DNA of 6,704 bases, from the NCBI GenBank assembly GCA_016188625.1, contig JACPHL010000149.1, forward strand, positions 1-6,704. Direction: 5' to 3'. The notes beneath the pieces were generated by a model. The model searched no databases. It was given only the letters and a program-made list of their open reading frames with translations, and was not told where the DNA came from. Positions within the stretch are counted from its first letter, which is position 1; every line of letters starts with the position of its first letter. This stretch comes from Candidatus Rokuibacteriota bacterium. Its GTDB lineage: Bacteria > Methylomirabilota > Methylomirabilia > Rokubacteriales > JACPHL01. Shown one piece after another: positions 5,073-6,704 of the stretch. The position numbers and the translations under genes were made by a program.

Positions 5073-6338
5073 GTGGAGGGCGAATACCGGAAGAGTGTCC
5101 TCCCCGACGGCATCCGCCTGGTGACCGAGCGGATGCCGCACGTCCGCTCCGTTGCCGCCGGGATCTGGGTCGAGACCGGGAGCCGCCACGAGCCCGAGGG
5201 GCGGAGCGGCGTCTCGCACTTCATCGAGCACCTCGTCTTTAAGGGGACCGAGACCCGCACCGCCGAGGAGATCGCCCGGGCGGTGGACTCGGTGGGCGGC
5301 CAGATGGACGCCTTCACCTCCAAGGAGCACACCTGCTTCTACGTCAACGTCCTCGACCAGCACGTCCCCCTCGCCGTCGATCTCCTCGCCGACATCCTCC
5401 TCCACGCCCGCTTCGCCCGGGAGGACATCGAGCGGGAGAAGACGGTCGTCCTCCAGGAGTTCCGCATGGTGGAGGACACCCCCGAGGACCTGATCCACGA
5501 CCTCTTCGCCCGGCGGATCTGGCCCGATCACCCCCTGGGCCGCCCGATCCTGGGGAGCCGGGATGTCGTGCTGGGCCTGGACCGGGAGGTCATTCTCAGC
5601 CACTTCGCCGAGGAGTACTGCCCGGCCCGGATCACCATCGCGGTCGCCGGCCACGTGGACCACGACCGGCTGGTGGAGCTCTTCGCGCCCCGCTTCGAGG
5701 GGTTCCACCGGCGCCCTGTGCACCGGGACGGCCTGCCGCCCGTCCTCACCCCGCAGGTGGACGTGGTGGCGAAGTCCCTGGAGCAGGTCCACTTCGTCCT
5801 GGGCCTGCCCGGGTTCGCCCACACCGCCCCGGAGCGCTACGCCCTCTACCTCCTGAACACGATCCTGGGCGGGGGGATGTCCTCCCGGCTCTTCCAGGAG
5901 GTCCGGGAACGGCAGGGGCTGGTCTACTCGATCTACTCCGGGAGCGCGGCGTTTCGGGATGCGGGCCTGCTCTACATCTACGCCGGGACCGAGGCGGCCC
6001 ACTTCCCCAAGGTCCTCCGCCTCGTCCTCGACGAGCTGGCCCGGCTCCGGGACAAGGGGATCACCGAGGAGGAGCTCGCCCGCTCGCGGGAGCACCTCAA
6101 GGGGAACCTGATGCTCTCCCTGGAGTCCACCTCGAGCCGGATGAACCGGCTCGCCAAGCAGGAGATCTACTTCGGGCAGTTCTTCTCGCTCGACGAGATC
6201 CTAGCCGCCGTGGACGCGGTGACCGTGGAGGAGGTCGGGCGCCTGATCGAGCGCCTCGTCGTGGAGCGCGACCTCTCCCTGGTCGCCCTGGGGCCCGTCG
6301 AGCCCGGGTCGATCGCCCGCGCCTCCCTCGCCCTCTAG
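5073..6338 (+). CDS. M16 family zinc metallopeptidase (processing-peptidase-like, inverzincin)
   Basis: Related to bacterial YmxG/MlpA-type peptidases and to the beta subunit of mitochondrial processing peptidase. These are single M16 units of about 400-430 residues, and this product has 421. Zinc and catalytic residues are present: inverted motif HFIEH with His 49, Glu 52 and His 53, and the third ligand Glu 129 in VVLQEF, 76 residues after His 53 as in active subunits. The C-terminal half has the typical glycine-rich segment GGGMSSRLFQEVRERQGLVYS at 266-286, including the Arg and Tyr that bind substrate. No signal peptide is visible, so a cytoplasmic enzyme is likely. The start is GTG at 5073, with GGAGG at 5062-5066 placed 6 nt upstream, giving the family N terminus (YRKSVLPDGIRLVTERMPHVRSV). 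The gap to pnp is 27 bp, so it is probably in the same operon. The natural substrate is unknown. Confidence 0.95.
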   Translation: MEGEYRKSVLPDGIRLVTERMPHVRSVAAGIWVETGSRHEPEGRSGVSHFIEHLVFKGTETRTAEEIARAVDSVGGQMDAFTSKEHTCFYVNVLDQHVPLAVDLLADILLHARFAREDIEREKTVVLQEFRMVEDTPEDLIHDLFARRIWPDHPLGRPILGSRDVVLGLDREVILSHFAEEYCPARITIAVAGHVDHDRLVELFAPRFEGFHRRPVHRDGLPPVLTPQVDVVAKSLEQVHFVLGLPGFAHTAPERYALYLLNTILGGGMSSRLFQEVRERQGLVYSIYSGSAAFRDAGLLYIYAGTEAAHFPKVLRLVLDELARLRDKGITEEELARSREHLKGNLMLSLESTSSRMNRLAKQEIYFGQFFSLDEILAAVDAVTVEEVGRLIERLVVERDLSLVALGPVEPGSIARASLAL

Positions 6339-6450
6339 GAATATGCCCGAGTACGGTTTTGGGGAGTCCGCCCCCCGGCAGGCCCGATCCGTACGCCGAA
6401 GGGCGAACGCCCCCGCCGGGGAGGTGTCGGCCCCTCGCTCCACACGCTCC

Positions 6451-6571
6451 GCGGCGGACCCTTCCGTGGCCGGCGGGGCGGGGAGACCCCTCCGGACTCG
6501 CCTTGAGGCTGCCTTTTACTTGCGGTCCGGCTTCCCCTTCCCCGCCGGCTCACGGTGGGTGCCCCCGCCGC
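6451..6571. repeat. Long imperfect inverted repeat (40-bp bulged hairpin)
   Basis: Successive complementary blocks pair in nested order: 6451-6457 with 6565-6571 (7 bp), 6458-6461 with 6557-6560 (4), 6464-6468 with 6551-6555 (5), 6469-6478 with 6540-6549 (10), 6480-6484 with 6533-6537 (5), 6492-6497 with 6525-6530 (6), and 6499-6501 with 6522-6524 (3). That is 40 Watson-Crick pairs, leaving a 20-nt apical loop (6502-6521), a bulged T6550, a 4-nt bulge at 6561-6564 and small internal loops. A competing local hairpin, GGGG-AGA-CCCC at 6480-6490, is possible. Outer blocks 6446-6450/6591-6595 and 6432-6438/6609-6615 could extend the fold. The pairing is directly visible; the strand that is transcribed, if any, and the function are unknown. 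Confidence 0.65.
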
Positions 6572-6677
6572 TCCGCTTAACGTTCCGCTCGGAGCCGATG
6601 CCTCCCGCGCGAGGGCTCGGAGGGAAGACGGGATTCGCTCGCCGGGGCACCCCGGCCACGCCCCCGAATTGAATTCG

Positions 6678-6693: not shown

Positions 6694-6704
6694 ATGAGGA
6701 GAAT
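6694..6704 (+). CDS. Start of an unidentified gene, cut by window end
   Basis: Only ATG AGG AGA AT is present, giving Met-Arg-Arg and an incomplete fourth codon. It is called as a gene start solely because of the ideal Shine-Dalgarno 8 nt upstream. Two Arg after Met would fit the basic start of a signal peptide, but the sequence is far too short to claim this. It is separated from the M16 gene by 355 bp, so it may belong to a new transcription unit whose leader includes the palindrome at 6451-6571. Confidence 0.6.

Follow-up and report, generated by a model that had tools for sequence, protein, structure and literature searches.

The palindrome lying downstream of the M16 peptidase gene in the window (6,704 nt, the whole of contig C277 of a Rokubacteriales MAG) very probably belongs, at roughly 0.87, to a family of ERIC/MITE-like intergenic palindromes that are dispersed, non-autonomous and specific to part of the Rokubacteriales. 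The family is previously unnamed and new, whereas its kind is already known; in the literature searched, dispersed palindromic repeats had not been described from Rokubacteria. Mobility of the element is suggested by its dispersal and by its presence or absence at given positions. The MAG spans 2.6 Mb in 344 contigs, is 84% complete and is broken at repeats.

The initial annotation had described nested complementary blocks with asymmetric bulges at positions 6451-6571, read as a 40-bp palindrome with a 20-nt apical loop, and had called for folding against shuffled controls. The blocks and bulges are present. The minimum free energy of this interval was -79.7 kcal/mol, compared with -58.6 ± 4.0 kcal/mol for 200 dinucleotide shuffles (z = -5.28), and none of the 200 shuffles folded equally well. 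The proposed rod was recovered with about 41 pairs; the loop is approximate, an extra short hairpin being predicted in the apex. As the full extent of the structure, however, the interval proved too narrow: it covers only the interior of a 188-nt element (Table 1), for which fold z-scores of -5.79 and -5.30 were obtained on the + and - strands, respectively, and of -4.41 when folded as DNA. This element is bounded by 16-bp terminal inverted repeats, and in a fold of the whole gap pairing continued past both ends. The complete 355-nt gap was itself just mildly unusual (z = -1.9 and -2.2), so the fold signal resides in the element. Upstream lies a truB-ribF-rpsO-pnp-M16 gene run, and downstream a likely gene start at 6694 that is cut by the contig end.

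Table 1. Features assigned in the window, with the basis of each assignment.
Feature	Positions	Strand	Basis
Complete dispersed palindrome (188 nt; variant with a longer spacer)	6419-6606	+	Alignment of 53 intact copies; fold z -5.8
Left terminal inverted repeat, GGGAGGTGTCGGCCCC	6419-6434	+	Limit of the conserved sequence in aligned copies
Right terminal inverted repeat, GGAGCCGATGCCTCCC	6591-6606	+	Limit of the conserved sequence in aligned copies
Conserved left internal-loop motif, TCGCTCCACACGCTCC	6435-6450	+	20-mer CCCCTCGCTCCACACGCTCC: 86 own-genome matches, control 3
Conserved right internal-loop motif, TCCGCTTAACGTTCCGCTC	6572-6590	+	20-mer CCGCTTAACGTTCCGCTCGG: 66 own-genome matches, control 0
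Inner bulged palindrome (initial annotation)	6451-6571	+	Fold z -5.28, 0/200 shuffles
Apical spacer, 33 nt in the window copy	6494-6526	+	Anchor spacing counts
Extended hairpin with flanking pairs beyond the terminal repeats	6409-6616 (approximate)	+	Whole-gap fold; matched-flank pairing, 49 copies
Second repeat module adjoining the element (mosaic flank)	6341-6418	+	BLAST of 6339-6420 against own-genome loci
M16 peptidase gene, upstream	5073-6338	+	Pfam PF00675 and PF05193

A BLAST comparison of the gap with its own genome, also called for at the outset, returned about 40 strong dispersed matches. Together with the recurrence of the left-end and right-end motifs (Table 1) and the 53 intact copies found among 74 loci read, this bears out the earlier suggestion of a dispersed MITE/REP-like palindrome. 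Intact copies are mostly 172-174 nt long with a median identity to the consensus of 92.5%; the window copy and the copy at L009 exceed this length and depart further from the consensus (76 and 82% identity, respectively). Terminal inverted repeats, typical of MITEs, are present as 16-bp ends in the 53 copies, and the combination of an imperfect palindrome, intergenic position and many copies places the family with the ERIC-like elements. Several partial copies stop at contig ends, indicating that the assembly breaks at the element; the total in this MAG is more than 70, and the true number is probably higher. The family thus marks break sites of this assembly. One copy (L173:1-430, G000:C26) is centred in a large inverted duplication whose arms reach into coding sequence, reflecting either a genuine rearrangement or a fold-back made by the assembly close to the contig end.

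Placement was assessed with a codon-usage gene caller trained on the genes of the window. All but one of the 74 copies are intergenic, the exception overlapping a predicted gene. Where both neighbours were visible, 32 copies lay between tandem genes, nine between convergent genes and one between divergent genes (convergent versus divergent, binomial p = 0.02). Between tandem genes, 15 copies were oriented sense to the genes and 17 antisense; this even distribution argues against a strictly oriented leader as a general role, and the earlier proposal of a leader controlling the gene at 6694 is not sustained in that general form. A long G+C-rich hairpin with such a convergent bias might act as an intrinsic or bidirectional transcription terminator, but this is highly improbable, given that no terminator-like site with a T tract was found in the gap and that copies lie inside gene pairs (etfA-acd and ftsW-murC) that abut in relatives. 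At L188:893-1999 (G000:C331), an open reading frame resembling a HisC-type aminotransferase, its usual C terminus seemingly missing, runs on into the element, which may have inserted within the gene. A copy in the related genome G025 (L161:575-910) lies between genes resembling cytochrome oxidase subunits I and II.

The superfamily was detected in 11 of 60 Rokubacteriales genomes, the present one included, with G031, G002 and G033 counted from fragments or weak matches only, and none of 35 genomes from the rest of the class contained it. The relatives that carry it belong to several other genera and hold it at low copy number; the exact pattern of their form matched Candidatus Rokuibacteriota MAGs only. 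These copies share their arms with those of the present genome, with 81-83% mean identity between copies; the centre is longer, and the outer stems are highly variable yet complementary. Left-arm modules some 25-40 nt long, solitary or additional, were also observed in relatives, beside or without a full element (L152, L153, L158, L166, L167 and L150).

As expected for MITEs, presence or absence could be seen at two orthologous junctions. Between etfA and the acyl-CoA dehydrogenase gene (acd), G033 has a gap of 0 nt, most non-carriers have 4-19 nt and two have about 100-130 nt, compared with about 225-330 nt in carriers G019, G037, G025 and G055, the copy in G055 being partial. Similarly, most non-carriers have an ftsW-murC gap of -8 to 48 nt, two others have 119 and 190 nt, and carriers G039, G028, G037 and G019 have 291-335 nt. 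Across both junctions, genes that almost touch in most non-carriers are separated by roughly 225-350 nt in carriers, so the element comes and goes. G033 belongs to the same genus as G019 and G037, so presence differs within one genus, although its missing etfA-acd copy could reflect loss instead of non-insertion. At ftsW-murC, the element is inverted in G039 (L148) relative to G037, G019 and G028 (L153, L164 and L156). Three junctions were compared further: site A (aminotransferase-glycosyltransferase), site B (ftsW-murC) and site C (etfA-acd). Spacers at the same site were alike in G037 and G039 (site A), G037 and G028 (site B) and G037 and G025 (site C), so that some same-site copies are likely to be related by descent. 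By contrast, the site C arms of G019 and G037 (81% identity) are no more alike than those of unrelated copies, which suggests separate insertion or replacement.

Pairing within the element was analysed in an alignment of 18 copies from relatives with the spacer left out. Compensatory change, a further check called for at the outset, was found as alteration on both sides at 23 of 45 pairs. Paired cells amounted to 94.3%, compared with 83% in shuffles, which ignore relatedness, and 40-55% in slid controls, a comparison that favours the structure because it was derived from the same alignment. Individual pairs in the outer helix showed up to six pair types, a variety that is still hard to explain other than by conserved pairing. 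Flanks of 49 copies also paired better with their own partners than with the flanks of other copies (z about -4 at both 12 and 40 nt), with a strong contribution from the L173 copy inside the inverted duplication. None of the three outcomes that the initial annotation had named as contrary to its proposal (folding energy at the level of shuffles, no copies elsewhere and no compensatory changes) was observed, and as a whole its interpretation is partly supported.

An RNA conserved on one strand is expected to show an excess of G-U pairs on that strand. Among pairs predicted on both strands, relatives' copies contained five G-U and seven A-C cells, and own-genome copies seven G-U and 17 A-C cells. 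Without a G-U excess, DNA palindromy, hairpins on either strand or correction by template switching fit better than one stranded RNA, and a strand-specific RNA was rejected since the G-U/A-C asymmetry showed no strand preference.

At two orthologous sites the arms were better conserved than third codon positions of murC. At site B, the arms of G037 and G019 are 97.9% identical, compared with 84.6% for third codon positions of murC, and at site A the values for G037 and G039 are 95.9% for the arms and 70.7% for murC third positions of the same genome pair. Paralogous copies within one genome average 83%, so gene conversion among copies is not the explanation; the conservation at both sites would instead follow from purifying selection or from a recent transfer of the region. 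In other orthologous pairs the arms do not exceed the paralogous level, and the excess is limited to some copies. That some orthologous copies keep their arms better than synonymous sites suggests that at least some of them do something for the host.

This conservation, like the strong covariation, would suit a cis-acting regulatory RNA, leader or intercistronic, that has spread by duplication and acts on the neighbouring gene. Such a role is nevertheless unlikely for the family: copies in the own genome show no preferred orientation, the element at one site is reversed from one genus to another, wobble pairs lack a strand preference, Rfam provides no match, and non-carriers keep the same gene pairs without the element. 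Similarly small is the chance that the pairing is mostly a mutational by-product, in which replication template switching makes and perfects palindromes with no selection for structure. In its favour, the double changes occur with few G-U intermediates, and template switching is known to homogenise inverted-repeat arms (PMC7202029, PMC8604942). It leaves unexplained, however, the arm sequences shared by dispersed copies and the conservation of arms above synonymous sites while the spacer diverges; spacer inversion, another of its products, did not emerge as a rule at orthologous sites. No reverse-complement spacer match was found in the site A or B pairs, and one site C pair, L152-L158, scored in both senses. 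Because a given junction occurs with or without the element in different genera, and with the element in either orientation, the family can be used to test whether selection or template switching maintains the pairing of palindromes.

The apical spacer falls into length classes of 21-22 nt in most own-genome copies, 33 nt in the window copy and L009, and 51 or 79-86 nt in relatives. In its middle, relatives' spacers are near random between copies (0.517 identity, compared with 0.493 for shuffles). The lengths lie near whole helical turns, a pattern noticed post hoc on four values. It is conceivable, if rather doubtful, that length (about 21, 33, 51 or 82 nt) and not sequence is selected, with the two arms bound by a host protein on a single face of the duplex and the element functioning at operon junctions as an architectural site, either chromosomal or transcriptional. 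A guide-like match between the spacer and its own flank was rejected, the longest exact match averaging 8.65 nt compared with 8.8 nt for other flanks.

Returning to a dispersed, non-autonomous palindrome, the element is probably moved or copied in trans by an enzyme recognising palindromic DNA, and would survive where it is least harmful, between co-directional or convergent genes. There it would be transcribed as a long hairpin that could affect the processing or stability of flanking mRNA segments, by analogy with ERIC, which alters the stability of flanking mRNA in Yersinia (PMC2229807; PMC10969869); on this reading the element would be retained as an intercistronic hairpin. Among the end motifs of this fragmented, 84% complete MAG, no long left-end to right-end pair was found that could represent an autonomous parent. 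No target-site duplication common to the flanks of the 53 copies was seen by eye, and the gaps of non-carriers are too divergent to define the ends. Phage, plasmid and viral-contig collections gave no match to the element, the plasmid and phage sets being covered by distant-mode BLAST.

In its palindromic, extragenic and mosaic organisation, with several hairpin types including mini-hairpins and a high copy number, the element resembles REP/BIME sequences and the REPINs associated with RAYT. Mobilisation by a RAYT (Y1 transposase) is still very unlikely: the unit is far longer than REP, and PF01797 gave no match in this incomplete MAG. The RAYT association was also rejected among relatives, where the presence of PF01797 does not track the element. 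The family shares with MITEs such as the Neisseria Correia elements its short length, terminal inverted repeats, intergenic position, non-autonomy and presence/absence between relatives, but is palindromic along most of its length, with no parental insertion sequence or target duplication identified. The likeness to ERIC (IRU, RU-1, the 127-bp enterobacterial repeat) lies in an imperfect palindrome of 100-200 bp, placed between genes in tens to hundreds of copies with no known transposase of its own. Unlike ERIC, it occurs in a different phylum, with a sequence that differs as far as tested; its apical spacer has fixed length classes and nearly free sequence, and it adjoins other hairpin modules. 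The effect of ERIC on mRNA also depends on orientation, whereas the orientation of the present element is even. A long rod-like fold with internal loops is shared with 6S RNA and similar bacterial RNAs, and a 6S-like or other structured RNA had been put forward; the many copies in both orientations, the lack of an Rfam match and the absence of a wobble strand asymmetry speak against it. No Rfam covariance model reached its gathering score in the window or seven other loci, and the tRNA/tmRNA search was empty; loose Rfam thresholds yielded chance matches to microRNA models only.

The adjoining module was traced by BLAST of positions 6339-6420, which gave 77-82% identity over 65-83 nt in six own-genome loci and weaker or shorter matches at further loci; it flanks several other copies as well, on one side or the other. 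The genome also contains seven mini-hairpins, each 52 nt long, in which just a short loop motif accompanies the terminal repeats; the repeats surround TCGCTCCACACGYTCCGCTC, as at L255, L258, L260, L264, L266 and L267. These can be derived from the full element by deletion between the 9-bp repeats ACGCTCCGC and ACGTTCCGC, or may look like the target that received the inner part. Another family of hairpin repeats, CTCGGAGGGGGG-N6-CCCCCCTCCGAG, was observed about 103 times in the genome (control 0), for example at G000:C134:2180-2209, and often lies near copies of the element.
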